Shown piece by piece: positions 36,038 through 48,319 of a DNA stretch of 64,000 nucleotides. Made by a program: the position numbers and the translations under genes. The notes under the pieces were generated by a model. That model worked only from the letters and a program-made list of their open reading frames with translations, did no database searches and was not told the DNA's origin. Origin of the DNA: Methyloversatilis sp. GTDB lineage: Bacteria > Pseudomonadota > Gammaproteobacteria > Burkholderiales > Rhodocyclaceae. Positions within the stretch are counted from its first letter, which is position 1. Every line of letters starts with the position of its first letter. The stretch covers positions 1 to 64,000 of the forward strand of contig JAEUNO010000032.1 in assembly GCA_016791045.1 (NCBI GenBank), read 5' to 3'.

Positions 36038-36943
36038 CTACGCCGATTCCTCGTCAGGCAAGGGTTGCGCGTTCGCCAACAAGGCTTCGAAGGCGAGGGC
36101 GGCCGGGCTGATCGGGCGTTCGGGCAGGCGGATTCGATAGAGCGTGCGCTGTATCGCGGCACCGCCCGGGTGCAGACGGCGGATGCGGCCCAGTGCCAGC
36201 TGGTCGCGCGCGCAGATGCGCGGCACCATGCCCAGACCGCGTCCCGCCGCCACGGTCTGCACGATGGCCTCATTGCTGCCCACTTCTATCGTGCGTGCCG
36301 GCGTCAGCCCCATTTCATCGAGCACACGGTCGGTGGCGGCGCGACTGCCTGAGCCGCGCTCGCGCACGATCCAGCTGTGATCGGCCAGATCGGCCGGCCT
36401 CAGGGCGCCGCCGGTCGGCAACTCGGCATCGCGTGGCGCGATGATGACCATTTCGTCGCGTCGCCAGATGCGGCGGTTCAGTCGCGCATCGTCGACTTCA
36501 CCCTCGACCAGCGCCACATCGACCCGGCAATCGAGCAGCAGATCGGCGATCTGCCGCGTGTTGCCGCTGATCACCTGCAGCTCGACCTGCGGATGGCGGG
36601 CATGGAAATCGACCAGGAAGGGCGGCAGCCAGTAAGTCGCGATGGTGGTGCTGGCGCCTATGGTCAGCCGCCCGCGTTCGAGCGAACTGTAGGCGCGGAT
36701 GGTTTCGGTCGCTTCCCGTTCGAGCGCCAGGATGCTGCGTCCGTATTCGTACAGCGCGCGGCCCGACTCGCTTGGCTTGAAGGTCTTGCCCCGACGGTCG
36801 AGCAGCACGGTTTCGAGCTGCGATTCGAGCTCACGCACCGCCTTCGATACCGCAGGCTGCGTGATGTTCAGCCCTTCGGCCGCGCGCGAGAAGCTCTGAA
36901 CTTCGACGACCTTCACGTAGATGCGCAGAAGATGCAGATTCAT
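36038..36943 (-). CDS. LysR-family regulator (YeiE/CbbR-like)
   Basis: A 301-residue LysR-type regulator. The winged-helix N-terminus is LRIYVKVVEVQSFSRAAEGL followed by NITQPAVSKAVRELE; the effector domain starts near residue 92 (RLTIGASTTIATYWLP). It is divergent from a YeiH-type permease, the same pairing as yeiE-yeiH in E. coli, so it most likely controls that gene in response to sulfur or sulfite state. A perfect palindrome lies at its own start. Confidence 0.88.
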   Translation of the reverse strand: MNLHLLRIYVKVVEVQSFSRAAEGLNITQPAVSKAVRELESQLETVLLDRRGKTFKPSESGRALYEYGRSILALEREATETIRAYSSLERGRLTIGASTTIATYWLPPFLVDFHARHPQVELQVISGNTRQIADLLLDCRVDVALVEGEVDDARLNRRIWRRDEMVIIAPRDAELPTGGALRPADLADHSWIVRERGSGSRAATDRVLDEMGLTPARTIEVGSNEAIVQTVAAGRGLGMVPRICARDQLALGRIRRLHPGGAAIQRTLYRIRLPERPISPAALAFEALLANAQPLPDEESA

Positions 36944-37042: not shown

Positions 37043-38053
37043 ATGAATACGACGACTGCCCTCACACCGCTCAGCCTGCCGACCGGTGTTGCTGCGTCGG
37101 TCGCGGTTGCCGGCGCAGCGGCGGCCCTTTCCAGTCTGCCTGGCGTGTCGGCATACGGCTTCGGCTGGCTGCCCCTGGCGGTGTCCCTAGGCATCGTGAT
37201 CGGCAATCTGTGGCCTTCGCTGCCGTCGCGCGGTGCCGAAGGATTCCGTCTGGCGCGCGGCACCCTGATGCGCGCCGGCATCGCCTTGTACGGACTGCGC
37301 ATCGGCATCGACGAACTGGGCCGGGTGGGCTGGAGCGGTCTGCTGATGGCGGTGGTCGTTGTGCTCAGCACCCTCGGGCTGGCGCTGACACTGGGACGTC
37401 GTCTCGGTCTCGACCCCCAGGTGGCCGTGCTGGTCGGCTGCGGCAGCGCGATCTGCGGTGCCGCGGCGGTTGCGGCCGCCGACAGCGTGATCGGTGCCCG
37501 GGCGCGGCATGTGTCCGCGGCAGTGCTGGCGGTGGTGGTGTTCGGCACGCTGGGCATGTATCTGCTGCCCCTTCTCCATCCCCTGACGGGCTTGAGCGAT
37601 CATTCCTTCGGTCTGTGGGTGGGGCTGACGGTGCACGAACTGGGTCATGTGGTGGCCGGCGCCGAGGCGGCCGGACCGGGCGCGGCCGCCAGTGCGCTGG
37701 TCGAGAAAATGATGCGCGTGATGTTGCTGGCGCCGGTCGTCATGCTGATCGCTGCCCGATGGCGCAATGGCAGCACGACGGCCCCATGCAGCCCGGGCGT
37801 TCCGCTTTTCCTCTACGGCTTCATCGCGACGATGGCGCTCAATGCGTCCGGTCTGCTGCCGGCGTGGCTGCACGCCCTGGGTGCCGAAGCGGCGCAGGCG
37901 CTGCTGGCGGTCGGTCTGGCGGCGCTCGGTGCCAACACCCGGTTGGCCGACATGGCGCTGGCCGGCTGGCGGGTGTGGGCGCTCGCTGCGCTGCTCTGGA
38001 TATGGCTGTTGCTTGCCGGCTTCGGCCTGGTCAGCCTCGGGGCGCTGTCATGA
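37043..38053 (+). CDS. YeiH-family putative sulfate exporter
   Basis: A polytopic membrane protein (about ten helices, 336 residues) of the UPF0324/YeiH family. Motifs: ARGTLMRAGIALYGLRIG, GCGSAICGAAAVAAADSVI, and LTVHELGHVVAGAEA. The family is annotated as sulfate/sulfite-related export on genetic evidence only; in Cupriavidus a relative is linked to taurine-derived sulfate export. An ATG at 36989 is in frame but would fall almost at the predicted transcription start, so 37043 (MNTTTALTPL) is preferred. Confidence 0.8.
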   Translation: MNTTTALTPLSLPTGVAASVAVAGAAAALSSLPGVSAYGFGWLPLAVSLGIVIGNLWPSLPSRGAEGFRLARGTLMRAGIALYGLRIGIDELGRVGWSGLLMAVVVVLSTLGLALTLGRRLGLDPQVAVLVGCGSAICGAAAVAAADSVIGARARHVSAAVLAVVVFGTLGMYLLPLLHPLTGLSDHSFGLWVGLTVHELGHVVAGAEAAGPGAAASALVEKMMRVMLLAPVVMLIAARWRNGSTTAPCSPGVPLFLYGFIATMALNASGLLPAWLHALGAEAAQALLAVGLAALGANTRLADMALAGWRVWALAALLWIWLLLAGFGLVSLGALS

Positions 38054-38204: not shown

Positions 38205-38228
38205 TGACATGACCTGTCATAACAGGTT
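38205..38228. promoter_or_regulatory. Operator site 1 (GntR-type palindrome)
   Basis: The core ATGACCTGTCATAACAGG contains two overlapping inverted repeats: ATGAC-CT-GTCAT (38209-38220) and CCTGT-CATA-ACAGG (38213-38226). The full 24-bp stretch recurs at 39197-39220 with one difference (T versus C at the centre). It lies 54 bp before the TauE/SafE start codon. Confidence 0.65.
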
Positions 38229-38281
38229 TGGCGTCGCACCGCCGCGGAATGCGCGCCGCTTGTCCCGCCCGGGAGAACTGA

Positions 38282-39136
38282 TTGGATGCTTCGCTGCTGA
38301 ACACGCTGTGGCCGGACCGCGACATTGCGAGCTGGGCGGTGATTGCCGGCGCAGTGGTCGCAGGCGGCGTGCTGCGCGGCATGACCGGCTTCGGCGCTGC
38401 GCTGCTGATGGCGCCCCTGCTGTCCACGGTGGCGTCGGCGCGCGACACGCTGTGCATCGTCACCTTGCTGAACGCGCTGCCGCTGACCTACGCGCTGGGG
38501 CCGTCTGTACGCCGGATGGTCGATCACCGTGTGCTGCTGCCCATGCTCGGCGCCGCGTGCTTCGGCATTCCGCTCGGTCTGTGGCTGGTGAGCGTGCTGC
38601 CGGCGCGACTGTTCGGACAGGTGATCGGTCTTGCGGTGATTGCCAGTGCAGCGGTCTTGCTGACCGGCGTGCGCCTGGTGCGCGGCCCCAGTCATGCCGG
38701 TTCCATCGGCGCGGGACTGTTCAGCGGGGTATTGACCGGCTTCGGCGGTGTCGGCGGACCGCCGGCCATCCTCTACCTGCTGGGCGTGGAAACCGACAGT
38801 CATCGCGCGCGGGCCAGCTTCCTCGTCTACTTCGGATGCCTGTATCCGCTGGCACTGATTGCCATCGTGCTGTCCGGCTTGTTCGGTCTGTCGCTGCTGC
38901 TGCAGGGGCTGCTGCTGGCGCCCCTTTTTCATGGCGGCGGCCTGTTGGGCGAGCGTCTATATCGCGGTCTGGACCCACGCCATTTCCGTCGCGTCGTGCT
39001 GTGCCTGCTGATGGTCACCGGTGCGTTCGCAGCCTGGCCGGCGCACGCGACCGCTTTGGTGCAAGCGTCTGTCGCGGTGCAGCAAACCGGTGCGTGCATC
39101 GGTGCGGAAGATGTGCTGTCAAGTCTGAAAAGTTGA
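38282..39136 (+). CDS. TauE/SafE-family sulfite/sulfoacetate exporter
   Basis: A 284-residue membrane protein with about eight helices. The family motifs GVLRGMTGFGAALLMAPLLS near the start and GVLTGFGGVGGPPAILYLLG in the middle define TauE/SafE. The start is TTG at 38282, with GGGAG 6 bp upstream. Family members export sulfite, sulfoacetate or related anions after sulfonate breakdown. A shared operator ties it to the GntR-controlled cluster downstream. The unrelated C-terminal tail (after VTGAFAAWPAHA) looks like an extra short segment. Confidence 0.85.
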   Translation: MDASLLNTLWPDRDIASWAVIAGAVVAGGVLRGMTGFGAALLMAPLLSTVASARDTLCIVTLLNALPLTYALGPSVRRMVDHRVLLPMLGAACFGIPLGLWLVSVLPARLFGQVIGLAVIASAAVLLTGVRLVRGPSHAGSIGAGLFSGVLTGFGGVGGPPAILYLLGVETDSHRARASFLVYFGCLYPLALIAIVLSGLFGLSLLLQGLLLAPLFHGGGLLGERLYRGLDPRHFRRVVLCLLMVTGAFAAWPAHATALVQASVAVQQTGACIGAEDVLSSLKS

Positions 39137-39180
39137 TTCAAAGCAAAGGTTTATAGATATGTGGTGCGAGGCGGAAAAAT

Positions 39181-39196
39181 TGGCACTGACCTTGCA
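39181..39196 (+). promoter_or_regulatory. Sigma-54 (-24/-12) promoter before gntR
   Basis: TGGCAC-N5-TTGCA matches the sigma-54 consensus, with GG (39182-39183) and GC (39194-39195) exactly 10 bp apart. The predicted start, about 12 nt after the GC, falls inside operator site 2, so the GntR protein would block initiation. No sigma-54 activator gene is visible in the cluster. Confidence 0.5.
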
Positions 39197-39220
39197 TGAC
39201 ATGACCCGTCATAACAGGTT
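39197..39220. promoter_or_regulatory. Operator site 2 (GntR-type palindrome)
   Basis: ATGACCCGTCATAACAGG (core at 39201-39218) with perfect inverted repeat ATGAC-CC-GTCAT. It matches 23 of 24 bases of the site at 38205-38228. It lies 20 bp before the gntR start codon, fitting autoregulation. Confidence 0.65.
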
Positions 39221-39239
39221 CCCGAACAGGAGATCGAAC

Positions 39240-40019
39240 ATGGCACCCCACCGCAAGCAGATCGCGCCCCCGGGCGCTGCCAAGGTCGCGGATGCGTTGT
39301 CGCCGGTATCGCAGATGCCGCTGTATACGCAGATCCGCGAAATCCTGCGCCGGCGCATTCTCGACGGCAGCTATCCGCCGCATTCGCAGATGCCATCGGA
39401 AAGCCAGATGATTTCGGCATTCGCCGTCAGCCGCATCACGATCCGGCAGGCATTGGGCGACCTGCAGAAGGAAGGGCTCATCTTCAAGGTGATGGGCAAG
39501 GGCAGCTTCGTCGCCAAGCCCAAGGCCTTCCAGAGTCTGTCGCGGCTGCAGGGATTCGGCGAGGCGATGTCCACCTCCGGCTACGAAACCTACTCGCTGC
39601 TGCTCAGCGCCAGACCGGTCCCCGCGAGCGCACTCGTGGCACAGCGGCTGCAGCTCAAGGCGGAGGCGCCGGTGTTCGAGATCCAGCGCCTGCGCTACCT
39701 GAACCGCGAACCGATTTCGGTCGACGTGAGCTACTTCCCGCCGGACATCGGCGAACGGCTCGCGCAGGAAGACCTGGCCACCCGCGACATCTTCGTCATT
39801 CTCGAAAACGACCTCGGACGCAACCTCACGCACGCCGACGTGCAGATCGAGGCGATCTCGTCCGACGAGTCGCTGGCCCGCCATCTCGACATCGCCGAGG
39901 CCTCGCCGCTGCTGCGCATAGAGCGACTGACCTGGGCCGACGACCGGCCCATCGATTTCGAATTTCTCTATTACCGCGGCGACGCCTTCCAGTACCGCCT
40001 GCGCATCGACCGGAGTTGA
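39240..40019 (+). CDS. GntR-family regulator with UTRA domain (HutC subfamily)
   Basis: A 259-residue repressor-type protein. The winged HTH (about residues 25-93) contains PLYTQIREILRRRILDGSYP, then SESQMISAFAVSRITIRQAL; the UTRA effector domain follows (about 110-255) with FEIQRLRYLNREPISVDVSY. AGGAG precedes the ATG. It probably binds the two ATGACCYGTCAT sites and senses the cluster's substrate or an intermediate. It is followed 85 bp later by the flavoprotein gene, probably in the same transcript. Confidence 0.9.
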   Translation: MAPHRKQIAPPGAAKVADALSPVSQMPLYTQIREILRRRILDGSYPPHSQMPSESQMISAFAVSRITIRQALGDLQKEGLIFKVMGKGSFVAKPKAFQSLSRLQGFGEAMSTSGYETYSLLLSARPVPASALVAQRLQLKAEAPVFEIQRLRYLNREPISVDVSYFPPDIGERLAQEDLATRDIFVILENDLGRNLTHADVQIEAISSDESLARHLDIAEASPLLRIERLTWADDRPIDFEFLYYRGDAFQYRLRIDRS

Positions 40020-40104
40020 TCCACCGCTGGAAAGCAACGCAGGAATTCTTTGTTCGCAGCTGCGCGCCGAAGCGCGACAGTGCAGCCCCAATCAAGGAGA
40101 GAAC

Positions 40105-41835
40105 ATGAAGCGCATTGACCTGGAATTCGATCTCGTCGTCATCGGCGGCGGGACAGGCGGCCCGATGGCCGCGGTGAAGGCGAAGGAGAAGAACCCGAAG
40201 CTGCGCGTGCTGCTGGTCGACAAGGCCAACGTGAAGCGCAGCGGCGCGATCTCGATGGGCATGGACGGCCTGAACAACGCGGTCATTCCGGGCCATGCGA
40301 CGCCCGAGCAGTACGTCAAGGAAATCACCATCGCCAATGACGGCATCGTTGATCAGGAAGCAGTGATGGCCTACGCCGCCAACAGCTTCGACATGATCAA
40401 CCAGCTCGATCAGTGGGGCGTCAAGTTCGAGAAGGACGAAACCGGCGACTACGCGGTGCGCAAGGTGCATCACCTCGGCAGTTACGTGCTGCCGATGCCC
40501 GAGGGGCATCACATGAAGAAGATCCTCTACCGCCAGTTGAAGAAGGCGCGTGTCGAGGTGACCAACCGTGTCGTCGTGACGCGCGTGCTGACCGGCGCGG
40601 ACGGTGAAGTCGTGGCGGTCATGGGCTTCGACTGCCGTACCGCCGACACCTACGTCATCCGCACGAAGGCGGCGGTGCTCTGTACCGGTGCGGCCGGGCG
40701 CATCGGCCTGCCGGCATCGGGCTATCTGATGGGTACCTACGAAAACCCGACCAACTGCGGTGACGGCCACGCGATGGCCTACCACGCCGGTGCCGATCTG
40801 GCCAATCTCGAGTGCTTCCAGATCAATCCGCTGATCAAGGACTACAACGGACCGGCCTGCGCCTACGTGACCGGCCCCTTCGGCGGCTTCACCGCCAACT
40901 CCAAGGGCGAGCGCTTCATCGAATGCGACTACTGGAGCGGCCAGATGATGATGGAGTTCTACAACGAGCTCGAAGGCGGCAACGGCCCGGTTTTCCTGAA
41001 GCTCGACCATCTGGCCGAAGAGACGATCCAGGAGATCGAAACCATCCTGCATACCAACGAGCGACCCAGCCGCGGCCGTTTCCATGAAAAGCGCGGCAAC
41101 GACTACCGCAAGCAGATGGTCGAGATGCATATCTCGGAAATCGGTTTCTGCAGCGGTCACAGCGCGTCCGGCATCCACACGAACGCGATGGGTGAGACGT
41201 CGGTGCCCGGTCTGTATGCCGCCGGCGACTGCGCCAGCGTGCCGCACAACTACATGCTGGGCGCCTTCGTCTACGGCCGGCTGTGCGGCGAGAACGCCGC
41301 CGCCTACTGCGCCGGCCACGGCCAGGGCGTGGTCGATGCAGGGGACGTCGCCGCCGAGGAGCGCCGCATTCTCGCGCCGCTGGGCCGGACCGACGGGCTG
41401 ACGCCCTACCAGATCGAGTACAAGACGCGCCGCCTGGTGAATGACTACCTGCAGCCGCCGAAGATCACGCGCAAGTACGAGATCGCGCTGCGTCGCTTCG
41501 ACGAAATCCGCGAAGACGCCGAGTCGATGTTTGCGGCCAACCCGCACGAACTGATGCGTGCGATGGAAGCGCATTCCATTCTCGACTGCGCGGAAATGGC
41601 GGCGCGGGCATCGATGTTCCGCACCGAAAGCCGCTGGGGCCTCTACCACTATTTCCTCGATCACCCGGAGCGCGACGACGACAACTGGTTCTGTCATTCG
41701 CTGCTGAGCAAGAGCGCGGAAGGCCGCATGCAGATGCGCAAGAAGGCCATCGAACCCTACATCGTGCCGATCGACGAGGAAGAGCGCAGCGCCTATCAGC
41801 GGCTGCGCGTCGCGCACAACGCCGAAGCAGCCTGA
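40105..41835 (+). CDS. AsfA/AprA-like FAD-dependent reductase (fumarate reductase fold)
   Basis: A 576-residue flavoprotein of the succinate dehydrogenase / fumarate reductase / APS reductase alpha family. The FAD-binding start is FDLVVIGGGTGGPMAAV (GGGTGG at 14-19), and the second FAD motif is GLYAAGDCASVPHNYMLGAF near residue 370. The pairing with a small two-cluster ferredoxin matches AprAB and AsfAB; AsfAB of Pseudomonas putida is needed for aromatic sulfonate desulfonation. Sulfonate desulfonation is my inference from neighbours (sulfonate-type ABC importer, TauE). An APS-reductase-like or other sulfur redox reaction is possible. AAGGAGAG precedes the start. Confidence 0.75.
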   Translation: MKRIDLEFDLVVIGGGTGGPMAAVKAKEKNPKLRVLLVDKANVKRSGAISMGMDGLNNAVIPGHATPEQYVKEITIANDGIVDQEAVMAYAANSFDMINQLDQWGVKFEKDETGDYAVRKVHHLGSYVLPMPEGHHMKKILYRQLKKARVEVTNRVVVTRVLTGADGEVVAVMGFDCRTADTYVIRTKAAVLCTGAAGRIGLPASGYLMGTYENPTNCGDGHAMAYHAGADLANLECFQINPLIKDYNGPACAYVTGPFGGFTANSKGERFIECDYWSGQMMMEFYNELEGGNGPVFLKLDHLAEETIQEIETILHTNERPSRGRFHEKRGNDYRKQMVEMHISEIGFCSGHSASGIHTNAMGETSVPGLYAAGDCASVPHNYMLGAFVYGRLCGENAAAYCAGHGQGVVDAGDVAAEERRILAPLGRTDGLTPYQIEYKTRRLVNDYLQPPKITRKYEIALRRFDEIREDAESMFAANPHELMRAMEAHSILDCAEMAARASMFRTESRWGLYHYFLDHPERDDDNWFCHSLLSKSAEGRMQMRKKAIEPYIVPIDEEERSAYQRLRVAHNAEAA

Positions 41836-41874
41836 CACCCCGATCACATAGCCCGAATCCAGAGGAGTTACGCC

Positions 41875-42108
41875 ATGACCATAGCCACCACGCAGACCCA
41901 GGTTCCGGTGAATGTCGATAACGACAAATGCATCGCCGAGAAGGGCTGCACCGTCTGCGTCGATGTCTGTCCGCTCGACGTGCTCGCCATCGACATGCTG
42001 ACCAAGAAGGCCTTCATGAAATTCGACGAGTGCTGGTACTGCCTGCCGTGCGAAACCGATTGCCCGACCGGCGCAGTCAGCGTGTCGATTCCCTACCTGC
42101 TGCGCTGA
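41875..42108 (+). CDS. Two-cluster [4Fe-4S] ferredoxin (AsfB/AprB-like)
   Basis: A 77-residue ferredoxin. Cluster I ligands C19, C25, C28, C32 (CIAEKGCTVCVDVCP), cluster II C53, C56, C59, C63 (CWYCLPCETDCP). The CWxC...CP arrangement resembles the beta subunit of APS reductase. As the gene right after the flavoprotein, it is the likely electron donor subunit. AGGAG precedes the ATG. Confidence 0.88.
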   Translation: MTIATTQTQVPVNVDNDKCIAEKGCTVCVDVCPLDVLAIDMLTKKAFMKFDECWYCLPCETDCPTGAVSVSIPYLLR

Positions 42109-42119
42109 GGAGCCGGACG

Positions 42120-43067
42120 ATGGATATCCAGAACTGTTCAGTCGCCGAGCGCCTCGGCAGCGCGGACGCGGAAGTGCGGCGGCTCGCCGTGATCGACCTG
42201 CCTTATGGCGACGAGGACGACATCGTACCGCTGCTGCTGCCGCGCCTAGCCGACCCGGATGCGTCGGTGCGGACCGAAGCGGTGCGTGCGCTCGAGGGCT
42301 ACGAAGAGCCCGAGGTGGTTTCGGCACTGGCCCCGATGCTGCTCGATGCCGATGCCGATGTCCGCGCTGCGGCGGGTGTCGTGCTGTCCGAACTCAAGGA
42401 AAGCGCATCGGCAGCACCGTTGCTGCCCTTTCTGCACGGTCACTCTGCCGAGGTGCGCATGCTGGCCCTTCGTGCCGTGCGGGCCCTGCGCGTGCCGGAA
42501 GCCTTCGCTCCGGCGATGGACGCGTTGAAGGACGCGGATGCCGGCGTGCGGCGCGAGGCGGTCGGTGTGCTCGGCTACCTGCGGATGCCGGAGGCGATCG
42601 GCGCCCTGGCCCAGGTGGCGGCGCTCGATGCGGACGCCGACGTGCGGCGCATCGCCATCGGTGCCATCGGCTATTCCAGCGAGGTGAGCGTGCTGCCGGC
42701 GCTGACGCGCGGTCTTGCCGACACCGCGTGGATGGTGCGCGACGAGGCGGCCCAGACCCTGGGCAAGCTGCGGCTCGGTCTGGCCATTCCCGACCTGATC
42801 CGCGCCATGCATGACGAGTACTGGCAGGTGCGCGTGAAGGCCGCCCGCTCGCTCGGTCTGCTCAAGGCCGTCGCCGCGCTGCCGGCGCTGATCGAAGCGC
42901 TGACCCACACGATAGGAAACGTGCGCAAGGAAGCCGCCATCGCGCTCGGCGAAATCGCCGATCCGCGCGCGATTCCGGCGCTCGAGGCGGCGCTCGGCGA
43001 CGCCGATCCCGATGTGCGCAAGCTGTCGCGGCTTGCGCTCACCGCCATCACCCTGGCGCAGAAGTAA
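42120..43067 (+). CDS. HEAT-repeat (PBS-lyase type) protein
   Basis: A 315-residue protein built almost wholly of about nine HEAT / PBS-lyase repeats of some 31 residues (for example [40 protein letters not shown] and [20 protein letters not shown]). No catalytic motif or signal peptide is seen. Such repeats act as scaffolds or cofactor-loading helpers; here, between two ferredoxin genes, it may assemble or dock the reductase complex. GAGGAG is 8 bp before the ATG. Confidence 0.85.
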
Positions 43068-43077
43068 GGAGACAGCC

Positions 43078-43413
43078 ATGACCTATGTCGTGACCGAAGC
43101 ATGCGTGCGCTGCAAGTACACCGACTGCGTGGATATCTGCCCGGTGGAGTGCTTTCACGAGGGCCCCGAGTTCCTGGTCATCAACCCGGACATCTGCATC
43201 GATTGCGGCGTATGCGTCAGCGAATGCCCGGTCAGCGCGATCTACGCGCAGGACGATCTGCCCGCAGGACAGGAGGTGTTCATCGAGCTCAATGCGCGTC
43301 TTGCGACGCAGTGGCCGGTGATCGCCGAGGCCCACGAACCGCTCGCCGATGCAGAGACCTGGGCGCAGGTGAGCGAAAAACGGCAGTACCTCGACGCCCT
43401 TCAGGGCGCATGA
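43078..43413 (+). CDS. 7Fe ferredoxin (FdxA type)
   Basis: A 111-residue ferredoxin. Cys at 9, 12, 17, 21, 25, 40, 43, 46 and 50 are each one place after those of Azotobacter ferredoxin I, so a [3Fe-4S] (C9, C17, C50) and a [4Fe-4S] (C21, C40, C43, C46) cluster are expected. Sequence [20 protein letters not shown]. The C-terminal extension is typical. It is a second, separate electron carrier in the cluster and probably feeds electrons to the reductase. Confidence 0.9.
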
Positions 43414-43513
43414 AAAAGCGGTGGATGGGCCGGGCAGGAGACAGGCTTCCGCAACAACAACCGCAGCAGCACTTCGTCGTCCTTTATTGAATTGACAGGG
43501 AGAGGTGAACGCC

Positions 43514-44959
43514 ATGAATGCACTGAATGCAGGTTTCGATCGATTGGCTGTCGTATCGCGCATGTTCGCACTGGGCGTGTCCGTCGCCCTCTGTGCGCCG
43601 GCCGCGCTGGCCGAGGTGATCACGGTGGGAATCGGTACGCAGAACACGACGACCAATACGGTGACCGGCGGCATCGTCATCAAGGAACTGGGTCTGCTCG
43701 AAAAGCATCTGCCGAAGACCGGCAAGTACAAGGACATTCAGTTCAAGATCGAGTGGCAGAACTTCACCTCGGGCCCGCCGGTGACCAACGGCATGGTGGC
43801 CAACACCCTGCAGATCGGCATGATGGGTGACTATCCGCTGCTGGTGAATGGCGCGACCTTCCAGGCCGGCCCGGAAACGAAGAGCCGCCTGATCGCACTG
43901 ATCGCCTACAACATCGACGGTGCCGGCAACGGCATGGTGGTGCACAAGGATTCCCCGTATTTCCAGCTGTCCGACCTGAAGGGCAAGAAGGTGTCGGTGC
44001 CGTTCGGTTCCGCCGCGCACGGCATGCTGCTCAAGGCCATGGAAGACCGCGGCTGGAAGTCCGATTACTGGGATCTGGCCAGCCAGAGCCCCGAGGTCGG
44101 CACGTCGAACCTGCAGGAAAAGCGCATCGACGGCCATGCCGACTTCGTGCCGTTCGCCGAGTTGCTGCCCTATCGGGGCTTTGCGCGAAAGATTTTCGAC
44201 GGCGTTGAAACCAAGGTACCGACCTTTCATGGCGTGGTGGTACGCGAAGATTTCGCCAAGAAGTATCCGGAATTCGTCGTCGCCTACATCAAGGCGCTGA
44301 TGGAAGCCAACGACTGGGTACGCAAGAACCCGGTTGAAGCGGCAACGAAGATCGAGGAATGGACCCGCGTCGAGAAGGAGGTCGCCTACATGTTCCTTGG
44401 CCCGAGCGGCGTCCATACGCTGGATCCCACCATCAAGCCGAAGTGGATCGAGACGGTGAAGTACGACCACGGCGTGCTGAGCCGCATGGGCCGGGTGAAG
44501 GAGTTCGACGCCGATGCGTGGGTCGATGAAACCTATGTGATGCAGGCCTACAAGGAACTCGGGCTCGACTACGCGGCGCAGAAGGCCGGCTATTCGAGTT
44601 ATGAAATTTCGGGCACCGACCCCTTGTGCGGCGGCAGCATCACGGCGCCGCGCGAGGCGGGCGAGGTCTGGATAGAGGGCGGGGCGCTGACCGCCTACAA
44701 ATCGGCCAACTGCACACTGGCGGCGGTCCGCAAGGCAACGGAATCCGGCAAGAAGGTCGGGGTGGCCTTCGTGTTCGATCAGACCTTCAGGATCAAGCTG
44801 TTCGCCGACAAGGCCTTCTACTCGCTGGTCAGCAAGGATGGCGCCACGCAGATCGTGCCCTTCCTGCTGAAGAAGGATGCGGAGGCGCATGCCGCTGCCA
44901 ACGGCGGCAAGACAGGGCTCTATGCCGATGCACTGGCCGTCGCAACGGTAAGGAAGTGA
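43514..44959 (+). CDS. ABC transporter substrate-binding protein (sulfonate/nitrate type) with C-terminal extension
   Basis: A 481-residue periplasmic protein. The signal peptide spans about residues 1-33 (cleavage after AALA). A type-2 binding fold of the SsuA/NrtA/TauA kind follows (VITVGIGTQNTTTN at its start, MVANTLQIGMMGDYPLLVNG, DLKGKKVSVPFGSAAHGMLL). From about residue 365 there is an extra region of some 115 residues (ALTAYKSANCTLAAVRKATE, FADKAFYSLVSKDGATQIVP, DAEAHAAANGGKTG) that faintly resembles the end of NosL-type proteins. The ATG at 43514 with GGGAGAGG upstream is chosen over GTG 43505. Confidence 0.85.
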   Translation: MNALNAGFDRLAVVSRMFALGVSVALCAPAALAEVITVGIGTQNTTTNTVTGGIVIKELGLLEKHLPKTGKYKDIQFKIEWQNFTSGPPVTNGMVANTLQIGMMGDYPLLVNGATFQAGPETKSRLIALIAYNIDGAGNGMVVHKDSPYFQLSDLKGKKVSVPFGSAAHGMLLKAMEDRGWKSDYWDLASQSPEVGTSNLQEKRIDGHADFVPFAELLPYRGFARKIFDGVETKVPTFHGVVVREDFAKKYPEFVVAYIKALMEANDWVRKNPVEAATKIEEWTRVEKEVAYMFLGPSGVHTLDPTIKPKWIETVKYDHGVLSRMGRVKEFDADAWVDETYVMQAYKELGLDYAAQKAGYSSYEISGTDPLCGGSITAPREAGEVWIEGGALTAYKSANCTLAAVRKATESGKKVGVAFVFDQTFRIKLFADKAFYSLVSKDGATQIVPFLLKKDAEAHAAANGGKTGLYADALAVATVRK

Positions 44960-44962
44960 GCC

Positions 44963-45928
44963 ATGGGAACCGCTATCAGGATTCAGCCCGCGGATGACGT
45001 TCGATCGTTCGCGCCGGAGCCGGACGAAGGTGCGACATCGCTGCGTGAGCTGCCGGCTGCGCCAGCCGTCAGGCACGTGGAACGGTCCGATACAGCGGCT
45101 CCCGTGGGCACACTCAGGTCATCGGCATTCTGGCGATTGTTGCGCAGCGAAGGGCCGGCAATGCTGCTGGCCCTCGTTTCCATCGGTCTGCTGATCGGCT
45201 TCTGGTACCTGGCGACCGCCTATCGCTGGGATTTCTACATCCGCTTCACGCACATCCCGGGGCCGGTCGAGGTCTATCGCGATGCGCTGGCGCTGTTCGG
45301 CGATCCGAAGTTCATGACCAACATCACGATCAGCCTGCGTCGCATCATGCTCGGCTTCATCGTGGCCACGGTGCTTGGTGTGGGCTTCGGCCTGCTGATC
45401 GGACGCTACCGTGCGGCGCGCGGTCTGCTCTTTCCCGCAATGGAAATCCTGCGTCCGATACCGGCGATCGCCTGGGTGCCGATGTCCATCATGCTGTGGC
45501 CGACCACCGAAACCAGCATCGTGTTCATCACCTTTCTCGGCGCGTTCTTTCCCATCCTGCTCAACACCATGCACGGTGTGGCGACGATGGACAGCGTACT
45601 GGTGCGGGCGGCGCGCTGCCTGGGGGCCAACGAGTTCGCACTGATGACCCAGGTGGTGCTGCGCGGTGCGATGCCCCACATCTTCACCGGACTGTCCGTG
45701 GGCATGGGGGTGGCGTGGGTGTCGCTGATCGCTGCGGAAATGATCTCAGGTCAGTACGGCGTCGGCTACTTCACCTGGGAAGCGTATTCGTTGATCGAGT
45801 ATTCACACATCGTGATCGGCATGCTCGTCATCGGCGTACTGGGTCTGCTGTGCAGCGGTGCCATCCGCCTGCTGGCCCGGCTCGCCATGCCGTGGCAGGT
45901 ATCGGTCGGCAAGGAGAACACGCGATGA
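44963..45928 (+). CDS. ABC transporter permease (SsuC/TauC family)
   Basis: A 321-residue inner-membrane permease with about six helices. The EAA loop that docks the ATPase is RAARCLGANEFALMTQVVLR followed by GAMPHIFTGL. An unusual hydrophilic N-terminal extension of about 60 residues precedes the first helix. It is 3 bp after the binding-protein gene and overlaps the ATPase gene by 4 bp. Substrate is inferred to be a sulfonate or similar anion. Confidence 0.9.
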   Translation: MGTAIRIQPADDVRSFAPEPDEGATSLRELPAAPAVRHVERSDTAAPVGTLRSSAFWRLLRSEGPAMLLALVSIGLLIGFWYLATAYRWDFYIRFTHIPGPVEVYRDALALFGDPKFMTNITISLRRIMLGFIVATVLGVGFGLLIGRYRAARGLLFPAMEILRPIPAIAWVPMSIMLWPTTETSIVFITFLGAFFPILLNTMHGVATMDSVLVRAARCLGANEFALMTQVVLRGAMPHIFTGLSVGMGVAWVSLIAAEMISGQYGVGYFTWEAYSLIEYSHIVIGMLVIGVLGLLCSGAIRLLARLAMPWQVSVGKENTR

Positions 45929-46794
45929 ACGCCACTTCCGTCCCGGGCAAGGGTCACATCGAAATCCGCGATGTCTGCGTCCGCTTCACCCAGAACGGCG
46001 TGCCGCTCGATGCAGTGAGCGACGTATCGCTCGACGTGAAGCCCGGTGAATTCGTATCCATCGTCGGGCCGTCCGGATGCGGCAAATCGACCTTGCTCAA
46101 CATTGTCGCGGGCTTCCTGAAGCCGCATCAGGGCATCGTTTCGGTCGATGGATCGCCGGTCGGCGGTCCGGGTGCGGATCGCGGCGTGGTGTTCCAGCAG
46201 TATTCGCTTTTTCCATGGCTACGTGTGCGGGAGAACGTCGAATTCGGCCTGAAGATGAAGGGCGTCAGCCGCAGCGCGCGCGAGACAAAGGCGCGCACGC
46301 TGCTCGGGCTGGCGGGCCTGCTGTCGTTCGAGAATCACTATCCGGAGCAATTGTCCGGCGGCATGAAGCAGCGCGTCGGCATCGTGCGGGCGCTGGCCAC
46401 CAGCCCGCAGGTCATGCTGATGGACGAGCCCTTCGGAGCACTCGACTCGCAGACGCGCGTGGTGATGCAGGAAATCCTGACCAATATGTGGCAGCAACTG
46501 CAGCTGTCGGTGCTGTTCATCACGCATGACATCGAAGAGGCCATCTTCCTGTCGGACAAGATCTACGTGATGACCGCGCGCCCCGGCCGCATCAAGGCGG
46601 AAATTCCGGTGCCGCTGCCGCGACCGCGCACGCCTGAAATGACCTCGTCGCCGACCTTTCTCGCATTGCACCGTCAGCTCAAGGCGCTCATCCGCGAAGA
46701 AAGCCTCGCGGCAATGGGTGGCGAGCTGAAGGAAGGCGGTCTGGCCGGGCACGACTGGCACGTCGGCGCCGAAGGCGTGGGCGCGATGCTGTGA
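45925..46794 (+). CDS. ABC transporter ATP-binding protein (SsuB/TauB family)
   Basis: A 289-residue ATPase with Walker A GPSGCGKST (48-56), signature LSGGMKQR (143-150) and Walker B VMLMDEP (163-169), followed by FITHDIEEAIFLSDKIYVM. The C-terminal tail of about 35 residues (LAAMGGELKEGGLAGHDWHV) is an extra. It is the energy subunit of the importer. Confidence 0.92.
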   Translation: MNATSVPGKGHIEIRDVCVRFTQNGVPLDAVSDVSLDVKPGEFVSIVGPSGCGKSTLLNIVAGFLKPHQGIVSVDGSPVGGPGADRGVVFQQYSLFPWLRVRENVEFGLKMKGVSRSARETKARTLLGLAGLLSFENHYPEQLSGGMKQRVGIVRALATSPQVMLMDEPFGALDSQTRVVMQEILTNMWQQLQLSVLFITHDIEEAIFLSDKIYVMTARPGRIKAEIPVPLPRPRTPEMTSSPTFLALHRQLKALIREESLAAMGGELKEGGLAGHDWHVGAEGVGAML

Positions 46795-47096
46795 GCGCGC
46801 TGCCGAGGCGCATCACGGTGCACAGCACGTCCCGTCTGTTGCACATCGAGTGGGACGACGATACTGAAAGCGCTCTGCCCCATGCGTTGCTGCGCGCACG
46901 CTGCCGCTGCGCTTTCTGCACGAAAGCGGCACGCGCCGGTGAGGTGCAGCAGGACTGCAGCGAGGTCGCGCTGACCGAGGTTCATGAAATGGCAGGCACC
47001 GGCGTGAACCTCGTGTTCTCCGACGGCCACCGGCGGGGCATCTATCCGTGGGCCTATCTGCGAGAACTGGGTACGCAGCGCGAAGCCGCATCGTGA
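46791..47096 (+). CDS. DUF971 / GBBH-like N-terminal domain protein
   Basis: A 101-residue single-domain protein. The motif LLHIEWDDDTESALPHALLRARCRCAFC is cut here to its key parts: IEWDDD, LRARCRCAFC and the end SDGHRRGIYPWAYLRELG, which define DUF971. This domain occurs alone, at the start of gamma-butyrobetaine hydroxylases (where it binds zinc) and fused to Mrp/ApbC. The GTG start overlaps the ATPase stop, so it belongs to the cluster; its role there is unknown. Confidence 0.85.
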   Translation: MSALPRRITVHSTSRLLHIEWDDDTESALPHALLRARCRCAFCTKAARAGEVQQDCSEVALTEVHEMAGTGVNLVFSDGHRRGIYPWAYLRELGTQREAAS

Positions 47097-47281: not shown

Positions 47282-48319
47282 TCAGCAGTCCTTCAGCGCC
47301 AGCGCCGACAGTTTTTCCAGCAGGCCCTTCAAGCGGTCATGCTCATGCAGCCCGTTGATCCACGCTTGCGGTACGGCGTGCAGGCCGCCCTGCGCGCCGA
47401 GCAGCGCGCCGAGCACGACGCCGCGGTGGCAGTTGTCGCCGCCCAGTCGTGCGTTGGACATCAGTCCGGTGCGCAGGTCGGACCCGTATTTCACGGCGAG
47501 GAAGAGCGTCGCCGGCAGTGAATCTTCCAGGTAGCAGGCCGGGCTGAACTGGGTGCCGACGACTTCTTCGTCCGGCCGCGTGCGCACCCACGACCGGTAG
47601 GGCCAGGTCAGCGCGGTGTGCGCGGCGCCGCCCGCGCGCTCGATGGCGTCGTCGATCGGCACGCCCTGCAGCAGGAAGTACATCAGGTCGGCGAACACTT
47701 TCGCCGCCTCGGCCGCGACTGGCCCCTTGTGCGTCAGATCGATGTGCGACGCCACCGCTTCGTGCATCGCGTGGCGGTTGGCCGCGTGGAAAAGGATGAG
47801 CGGTGTCAGCGTCGCCAGACCGCCGATGTGGATATCCTCGATGCCGCAGTCGCCCAGTTCACGGCCTTCGGCGTAGTGCCTGAAGAAGGCACGGTGGTAC
47901 TCCTCGACATAGGTATCGCCGTGCATGCCGGGCGTCAGCATGAAGTCGAGGTAGCGGCGCGCGAAGTCGTCGCGGTCGTAGTGGCCGCACTCGACCAGCG
48001 ACTCGGCCAGCAGCGCGGCGAGCCGGATGTTCAGCGTGTTTTCGCCGGCGTGCAGGAACTGGTGGTAGTGGATGCCGCGCGGCCCGCCCCAGAAGCGGGC
48101 CTGGTCATGCAGGATGTCGTCGGTCGCGTCGGTGTGCTGGTACGTGCTGCGCCACAGGATGCTGTCCGGGTGCGGATTGTGCGGCGCCATGTAATGGTCG
48201 ATCTCGCCATAATCGACCGCGATGCGGCTGCGCGTGTAGTACCAGTGCACCGGCATGGCCAGTGCGTCGCCGATGAAGCTGGCCCACCAGGCCGCTTCGA
48301 GGCGCGAGTGATCGATCAT
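47282..48319 (-). CDS. ADP-ribosylglycohydrolase-family protein
   Basis: A 345-residue DraG/ARH-like hydrolase. Metal-binding motifs appear as SFIGDALAMPVHW at the N-terminus, HTDATDD, and RLGGDNCHRGVVLGALLGAQ near the C-terminus. It would remove ADP-ribose from a protein, nucleic acid or small molecule. No dinitrogenase-reductase or toxin partner is adjacent, so the target is unknown. It heads a run of minus-strand genes that includes several hydrolases. Confidence 0.82.
   Translation of the reverse strand: MIDHSRLEAAWWASFIGDALAMPVHWYYTRSRIAVDYGEIDHYMAPHNPHPDSILWRSTYQHTDATDDILHDQARFWGGPRGIHYHQFLHAGENTLNIRLAALLAESLVECGHYDRDDFARRYLDFMLTPGMHGDTYVEEYHRAFFRHYAEGRELGDCGIEDIHIGGLATLTPLILFHAANRHAMHEAVASHIDLTHKGPVAAEAAKVFADLMYFLLQGVPIDDAIERAGGAAHTALTWPYRSWVRTRPDEEVVGTQFSPACYLEDSLPATLFLAVKYGSDLRTGLMSNARLGGDNCHRGVVLGALLGAQGGLHAVPQAWINGLHEHDRLKGLLEKLSALALKDC

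Follow-up and report, generated by a model that had tools for sequence, protein, structure and literature searches.

What does a bacterium do with a protein that databases call a fumarate reductase, when its gene stands next to a regulator and is followed by genes for two ferredoxins and an importer? The question arises in Methyloversatilis sp., in a stretch of 64,000 nucleotides (contig JAEUNO010000032.1, positions 1 to 64,000; "the window" from here on), where twelve genes lie between 36038 and 47096. One encodes a LysR-type regulator on the minus strand. The other eleven are divergent from it, in the order YeiH-type exporter, TauE, GntR-UTRA regulator, flavoprotein (P0005), 8Fe ferredoxin, HEAT protein, FdxA, binding protein, permease, ATPase (P0011) and DUF971 protein (P0012). 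A first-pass annotation, made from the letters alone, had read the last ten as an organosulfur island akin to the arylsulfonate cluster asfRABC. The reading that we favor, and to which we give about an even chance, is a substrate-induced system for sulfonate import and reductive desulfonation, in which a ferredoxin-driven flavoenzyme resembling AprAB would release sulfite. More tentative, and in our judgment possible rather than probable, is the proposal that it represents an undescribed family of oxygen-independent desulfonases: an AprAB-derived flavoprotein-ferredoxin enzyme cleaving the sulfonate C-S bond, with its own maturation factor, HEAT protein, importer and sulfite exporters.

Do these genes belong together? 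A search with the flavoprotein matched at least 594 stretches, and at least 588 of these code for a relative, though more than one stretch may belong to a single locus. The best 80 loci were retained for neighborhood counts, including loci cut by contig ends, and the sample therefore leans to near relatives. Every one of the 80 has the flavoprotein, the small ferredoxin and the HEAT protein, and the GntR gene immediately precedes the flavoprotein gene in 77, which are all the loci where GntR is found. The DUF971 protein is present in 63, the ATPase in 62, the binding protein in 60, the permease in 52, FdxA in 30, ferredoxin-NADP reductase (Fpr) in 22, YeiH in 19, and TauE in 3; the 68 loci whose flanks are complete give 66 (GntR), 54 (DUF971), 50 (binding protein), 18 (Fpr), 15 (YeiH) and 2 (TauE). 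We observe three layouts. Layout one has FdxA and the importer after HEAT, and 11 such loci end with Fpr and YeiH; layout two has the importer between ferredoxin and HEAT and is without FdxA; layout three is without an importer match. Flavoprotein, small ferredoxin and HEAT are also found together in Alphaproteobacteria, Acinetobacter, Acidithiobacillus, cyanobacteria and actinobacteria, in the last with HEAT joined to the flavoprotein: Tsukamurella has such a fusion (NF010374, 1568 bits), and a 913-residue open reading frame (ORF) of Nonomuraea is consistent with the same fusion. Two of the three cyanobacteria (Pseudanabaena and Leptolyngbya) have flavoprotein, ferredoxin, HEAT, an Mrp/NBP35 protein, YeiH and TauE. 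Nostoc differs: two HAD hydrolases, a methyltransferase, and GNAT and VOC genes stand between its flavoprotein and ferredoxin genes, a hint at an extended pathway. Thus, linkage is clearly conserved in other genomes, in all near relatives examined and in distant phyla, and the idea of a single unit stands; its extent does not, as two more genes, LysR (minus strand) and the YeiH-type exporter (plus strand), lie upstream of the ten first listed.

Of the genomes sampled, 5 of 369 from the class and 21 of 398 from the phylum carry the flavoprotein gene (both counts include the host itself); it further turns up in 55 plasmid records, a few of them partial and one an APS (adenosine 5′-phosphosulfate) reductase-like protein at 28%. 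One plasmid record, from a clinical Acinetobacter baumannii (locus L023), carries layout two of the cluster beside a chromate efflux gene. Among the open-access papers listed in our searches, none is about the cluster as judged by title and abstract beginning, although other names or subscription papers may be missed. The same gene set recurs across many bacteria under a misleading flavoprotein name.

That name comes from the family model. P0005 is a member of NF006131 (1063 bits against a curated cut-off of 587), identity inside the family is 54-90%, and the model is labeled 'fumarate reductase/succinate dehydrogenase', as are the records of annotated relatives, which is why the cluster flavoprotein goes unnoticed. 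In a profile search of solved proteins, the best matches to P0005 are the alpha subunit of the Methanothermococcus thermolithotrophicus reductase of 3′-phosphoadenosine 5′-phosphosulfate (MtPAPS reductase, 247 bits), AprA (192 bits) and SdhA (120 bits). For the small ferredoxin, the polyferredoxin 9sfi_O comes first with 44 bits, and AprB (3gyx_B) second with 39 bits and its CWxC aligned. The full motif is found in 97 of 102 relatives, and the other five retain CWxCxxCxxxCP with a shorter first spacing. Against NCBIfam this ferredoxin stays under the cut-offs of both the aprB model (35 bits; cut-off 135.65) and the HgcB model (39 bits; cut-off 99). Because both reductase subunits outscore SdhA and the ferredoxin aligns with AprB, we take the enzyme type to be AprAB-like; the pairing proposed in the first-pass annotation is supported by the profile relatives and the CWxC alignment. 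For the methanogen PAPS reductase, PMC10322725 gives a tryptophan a proposed part in electron transfer.

Residues separate P0005 from the enzymes whose name or superfamily it shares. The counts come from an alignment of 103 members, including that of the window, which spans beta-, alpha- and gammaproteobacteria, Acidithiobacillus, cyanobacteria and actinobacteria. We take the site residues of Escherichia coli SdhA to be His242, Glu255, Arg286, His354 and Arg399, and His45 to hold the covalent FAD (flavin adenine dinucleotide). In a script-mapped alignment His242 and Glu255 become Asn241 and Tyr254, Arg286 and Arg399 fall in segments missing from P0005, and His45 becomes Gly47; only His354 is retained, as His342 (101 of 103 members). 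Asn241, Tyr254 and Gly47 occur in all 103. A fumarate reductase or succinate dehydrogenase identity is ruled out on these residues. So is a canonical APS reductase: of the presumed AprA site residues, Arg265 is replaced by Leu243 and Trp234 by Tyr212 (103 of 103 each), and Glu141 by Lys120 (98 of 103), while AprA Asn74 is retained as Asn57.

AsfA membership is ruled out on identity. According to its genome paper, the CHR2 replicon of C. metallidurans carries asfRAB, and P0005 has only two matches there, at 26% and 25% identity, so that kinship with AsfAB in the narrow sense is not supported (the comparison is with the whole replicon, not with an ORF pinned as AsfA of CH34 or with the AsfA of S-313). 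The only flavoprotein-ferredoxin pair found on CHR2 is at 40214-41863 and 39882-40217 of locus L130; the stretch around it has no LysR match (E 1e-8), and the CHR2 stretch at 785-834 kb holds no such pair. As far as we tested, sequence comparison thus sets the flavoprotein apart from AsfA, fumarate reductase and canonical APS reductase alike.

Invariant in all 103 members are Asn57, His122, Tyr212-Glu213-Asn214, Cys237, Gln239, Asn241, Leu243, Lys245, Asp246, Cys252, Tyr254, Tyr276-Trp277, Glu345, Cys349, His352, His381 and Tyr383. The family is conserved along its whole length (mean column identity 80% among 45 betaproteobacterial rows), and so invariance by itself marks no pocket; these residues nevertheless argue for one common reaction, which would not be fumarate, APS or PAPS reduction. 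Since the AlphaFold2 model is weak (mean predicted local distance difference test, pLDDT, 67.6, with much of residues 196-353 <50), the pocket is presumed from alignments only. Likewise, the flavoprotein tree is used only for family unity, because its outgroups sit on branches of 3.6-10 changes; several forks are unsettled, and two paralogues of the host's own genome are incomplete ORFs.

Could the enzyme be an assimilatory APS or PAPS reductase in function after all, or could it reduce some other sulfonate, inorganic or linked through O, N or S, such as a sulfate ester, a sulfamate or an S-sulfonate? The closest solved structure is a PAPS reductase, AprA Asn74 has its counterpart, and sulfonate-type importers may accept other sulfonated oxyanions. 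But the three replaced AprA residues speak against it, the importer does not belong to the sulfate type, no ATP sulfurylase gene occurs in 16 annotated neighborhoods of the flavoprotein family, and the host already has a CysH-family protein (PF01507). We consider this alternative unlikely.

The importer is what points to a sulfonate. In a profile search of solved proteins, the binding protein finds TauA first (87 bits) and SsuA next, and a fold search with its AlphaFold2 model (pLDDT 84.5) finds TauA 6ssy at a target template modeling (TM) score of 0.80. Because TauA and then SsuA come out closest in sequence and in fold, the substrate would be a sulfonate, and the call of a sulfonate-type importer is upheld. 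Further sulfur genes occur, by our reading, in 10 of the 16 annotated neighborhoods: LLM or SsuD monooxygenases, TauD, sulfate importers of the ATP-binding cassette (ABC) type, MetX/MetY, TauE/YeiH, and a second sulfonate importer (a TSUP gene 7 kb away in L023 is left out of the count). In 10 loci the cluster has sulfate-binding-type proteins nearby, the sulfate label being given by eye where Pfam assigns only the general solute-binding class. These observations also bear on the alternative of a sulfur-free substrate, for instance a nitrogen heterocycle or another anion, with the exporters incidental. Nitrate, bicarbonate and thiamine precursors have binding proteins of the NMT1 type too, and these appear as further fold-search matches; most loci are without YeiH and TauE; against that stand the top matches to TauA and SsuA and the sulfur genes just listed, and we give this alternative little chance.

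At its C-terminus (window 44600-44959) the binding protein carries a NosL-like domain, an unusual fusion. The last 119 residues score 18.8 bits against PF05573, under the cut-off of 24, and match NosL 7og7 at E 0.002. The Cys of this domain is not conserved, being lost in layout two.

On the export side, TauE scores 84.9 bits against PF01925 (cut-off 32.6), confirming the exporter assigned earlier. The YeiH-type protein reaches 241 bits against PF03601, above cut-off, and 212 against TIGR00698, under its 232.6. It is the only PF03601 gene found in the host genome, and 6 of 14 control genomes have one. YeiH and TauE are adjacent in the window and in Pseudanabaena and Leptolyngbya, and this adjacency, together with the 19 loci that have YeiH and its single occurrence in the host, is our reason for proposing sulfite export.

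In which direction would the electrons flow? Fpr follows DUF971 in 22 of the 80 loci. Neither an Fpr gene nor a long FAD protein is seen adjoining the window cluster; the host genome has an Fpr elsewhere, 71% identical. Four loci (L022, L096, L103 and L108) have a long FAD protein after the cluster or after FdxA, and the one scanned by NCBIfam, in L022, resembles the glutamate synthase beta subunit, below cut-off. From these partners we infer a reductive direction. FdxA and Fpr have no match in the three cyanobacterial loci, where a photosynthetic ferredoxin could take their place. Alternatively, the flavoprotein could act as a dehydrogenase that oxidizes an organosulfur compound or sulfite and passes electrons through the ferredoxins to NADPH (reduced nicotinamide adenine dinucleotide phosphate). 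AprAB is established to run both ways in nature, FAD proteins of this superfamily include dehydrogenases, and Fpr enzymes can run in this direction too. However, an enzyme linked to Fpr and FdxA more commonly receives electrons from them, and no respiratory or quinone-linked partner is seen in the annotated neighborhoods, which makes oxidation quite improbable in our view.

SsuD and TauD, the familiar enzymes of assimilatory desulfonation, require oxygen. Neither model has a match in the host genome (91.9% complete; other oxygenases not searched); as a control, among 14 genomes SsuD is matched in 8 and TauD in 1. An LLM monooxygenase query finds a match in only 2 of the 80 loci. With no conserved monooxygenase, and no SsuD or TauD match in the host, we favor a reductase over an oxygenase. 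Still, the flavoprotein might only pass electrons toward an oxygenase whose gene lies elsewhere, in the helper role proposed for AsfA/AsfB beside SsuD, and not act on the sulfonate itself. PMC4267179, which also names sulfonates as a major part of soil organic sulfur, describes Asf as a reductase/ferredoxin electron transport during oxygenation, and some relatives have LLM-type monooxygenases or ssuD nearby. But such linkage is as rare as just stated, the host gives no SsuD or TauD match, and distant groups share many invariant charged and polar flavoprotein residues, which suggest, without proving it, that a substrate is bound. A helper role is therefore, we think, improbable.

The GntR-UTRA gene adjoins the flavoprotein gene, and operator-like sites precede tauE and the GntR gene itself, in keeping with the GntR control that had been proposed. 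The palindrome has 4 strand matches in the window against 0.07 expected. In the 3.54-Mb host genome, the exact matches to the degenerate form ACYYGTNATNACRRGT are only these two sites; allowing one mismatch adds two further places, as many as the backward control gives. An exact site lies ≤320 bp upstream of a cluster gene in 43 of the 80 loci, with one exact match elsewhere in 1.62 Mb (backward control 0), and in 3 of 22 further loci. If ≤3 mismatches to the window form are allowed, a count by eye puts a site upstream of a cluster gene in 64 of the 80, a few of them possibly by chance. Nine of ten relatives' genomes contain exact sites, 13 in total (control 0), and 12 of the 13 are sites of clusters. 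A match at G754:C14:84217 is explained by no cluster examined; the same genome, also a Methyloversatilis, holds two cluster versions (L094 and L157) that differ in layout and operator form. Because operator-like sites recur in betaproteobacterial loci, sequence gives good support in that group to a GntR that regulates both its own gene and tauE. We would expect GntR to bind these sites as a repressor. An exporter that shares its operator with the GntR-UTRA gene suggests sulfur beyond need, unlike the starvation-controlled ssu and asf systems. In eight of the alphaproteobacterial, cyanobacterial and actinobacterial loci, a Crp/Fnr gene lies in or beside the cluster.

The CRCAFC of P0012 is a CxCxxC motif of the HCF101 type, found in 67 of 72 relatives. 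According to PMC7980591, HCF101 delivers [4Fe-4S] clusters to photosystem I subunits, and its DUF971 domain bears CxCxxC in many lineages, the function of that domain being called elusive. In cyanobacteria an Mrp/NBP35 protein stands in place of DUF971, with an iron-sulfur (Fe-S) assembly domain in the one scanned. DUF971 and HEAT may serve in assembly or maturation.

Putting these parts together, the favored sulfonate system would work as follows. The TauA/SsuA-like ABC importer would bring in an organosulfonate. Flavoprotein and AprB-like ferredoxin would pair as alpha and beta subunits, on the pattern of APS and PAPS reductase, fed from NADPH through Fpr (beside the cluster in some relatives, elsewhere in the host), FdxA and the small ferredoxin to the FAD, which would remove the sulfonate sulfur as sulfite. 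DUF971, or Mrp/NBP35 in cyanobacteria, would load Fe-S clusters, HEAT would assist assembly or docking, and sulfite would exit through TauE and YeiH. GntR would repress transcription from its own and the tauE promoter until it binds the imported compound or a product. The class of substrate, the direction of electron flow, the C-S cleavage and the sulfite product are what we infer, and the 'reductive C-S cleavage' and 'sulfite' of the first-pass annotation are reasonable in the same sense.

Several observations weigh against this picture. The weightiest are that we found no substrate or reaction for any NF006131 member and know of no precedent for flavin-driven reductive cleavage of a plain alkyl C-S bond. 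AprA Arg265 is a Leu in P0005. The binding protein scores 116.1 bits against TIGR01728 (SsuA_fam), under the cut-off of 163.5, and is not matched in 20 of the 80 loci (some of them short). Most loci are without YeiH and without TauE, FdxA is not found in 50 of 80 and Fpr not in 58, and both are also not found in two actinobacterial loci, where photosynthesis is no explanation. Five of the 72 DUF971 relatives, all rhizobial, are without CxCxxC, which speaks against a strict metal role. Finally, alphaproteobacterial, cyanobacterial and actinobacterial loci have no exact operator site. Cleavage would be easier with an activated sulfonate (an aryl sulfonate, or one alpha to a carbonyl) than with a plain alkyl one. 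If the desulfonase proposal is true, soil bacteria, rhizobia, cyanobacteria and actinobacteria conceal such an enzyme under the name 'fumarate reductase', and a common ferredoxin-driven route would alter which genomes score as sulfonate users, and where.

The table lists the features of the locus. The ten genes first described are all intact, in place and on one strand. From GntR to DUF971 the intergenic gaps are 85, 39, 11, 10, 100, 3, -4 and -4 bp; they are mostly short from the flavoprotein on, and the final genes overlap by 4 bp. Pfam scores exceed the curated cut-offs for GntR (PF00392, 63.1 bits), UTRA (PF07702, 132.2), HEAT_2 (164.7), GBBH-like_N (DUF971, PF06155, 78.0), BPD_transp_1 (79.9) and NMT1 (38.1), and FdxA reaches 151.4 bits against NF045490 (cut-off 135). 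Among named NCBIfam models, the LysR comes nearest to selenium-associated LysR (218 bits, under the cut-off of 250) and YeiE (188 bits, under 480).

Table. Features of the gene cluster in the window (coordinates on the forward strand; basis or remark in the last column).
Feature	Position	Strand	Basis or remark
LysR-type regulator	36038..36943	-	divergent from exporter gene; ratio of nonsynonymous to synonymous substitution rates (dN/dS) 0.065
YeiH-type putative sulfate/sulfite exporter	about 37043..38053	+	PF03601; TIGR00698 under cut-off
Palindrome, presumed GntR operator ACCTGTCATAACAGGT	38212..38227	.	upstream of tauE; 16 bp
TauE/SafE-family exporter	38282..39136	+	PF01925; TTG start
Second putative operator copy ACCCGTCATAACAGGT	39204..39219	.	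one mismatch; upstream of GntR gene; 992 bp from first
GntR/HutC-type regulator with UTRA domain	39240..40019	+	PF00392, PF07702
AprA/FrdA-superfamily FAD protein, presumed catalytic subunit	40105..41835	+	NF006131 (PRK08275)
AprB-like 2[4Fe-4S] ferredoxin, CWxC motif	41875..42108	+	alignment with AprB
HEAT-repeat protein, separate gene here	42120..43067	+	HEAT_2
7Fe ferredoxin FdxA	43078..43413	+	NF045490
Periplasmic binding protein, TauA/SsuA type, C-terminal NosL-like domain	43514..44959	+	start may be GTG 43505
ABC permease	44963..45928	+	PF00528
ABC ATPase (P0011)	45925..46794	+	homology in conserved position
DUF971/GBBH-like_N protein, CRCAFC motif, presumed Fe-S maturation factor	46791..47096	+	PF06155

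The relative L157 has an identical gene order, with 86% DNA identity in the longest matching block, and retains the 992-bp spacing of the two putative operator sites. Against it, dN/dS is 0.065-0.25 for all twelve genes, LysR through DUF971 (the permease comparison spans 82% of the protein), and purifying selection acts on all of them. Because G+C is ordinary (64.5% in the cluster stretch, 65.1% in the remaining window) and the L157 match continues into the purL region, the cluster does not have the look of a recent acquisition, and we reject that reading; the word 'island', in that sense, has to be given up. A sigma-70 promoter scan found 0 against 1.6 expected, and terminators numbered 5 against 6.4 expected, chance level and thus uninformative. 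Beyond the cluster, a tRNA-Leu called by ARAGORN at 48058-48143 sits inside a conserved-looking ORF on the opposite strand (47282-48319; by eye an ADP-ribosylglycohydrolase) and is probably a false call.

How does the cluster compare with known systems? It shares with asfRABC of Pseudomonas putida S-313 a flavoprotein, a ferredoxin, a sulfonate-type binding protein and the sulfur theme, but its flavoprotein belongs to another subfamily, and HEAT, FdxA, DUF971 and exporters are added; where asfRABC has the LysR-type AsfR, here GntR-UTRA adjoins the flavoprotein gene, the LysR lies beyond YeiH, and the controlling role would fall to GntR. Like dissimilatory AprAB, it has an FAD alpha subunit with the RSGA loop and Asn57 and an 8Fe ferredoxin with CWxC that may correspond to the beta subunit; unlike AprAB, it has Arg265, Trp234 and Glu141 replaced and a ferredoxin of 77 residues rather than 150-166, and none of the 16 annotated neighborhoods names a sat or qmo gene. 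The PAPS reductase of M. thermolithotrophicus (8a8o) is its best solved relative, at 247 bits over nearly the full length, yet the Arg at the AprA Arg265 position is Leu in P0005, and no kinase or sulfurylase gene lies nearby. TauA and SsuA are fold and sequence relatives of its binding protein, which differs by about 110 extra C-terminal residues with NosL-like similarity. Finally, the actinobacterial PRK13800 fusion (NF010374), for which we know of no function, joins the same flavoprotein to HEAT beside GntR, a ferredoxin and an ABC importer: one polypeptide in actinobacteria, two separate proteins in the window.

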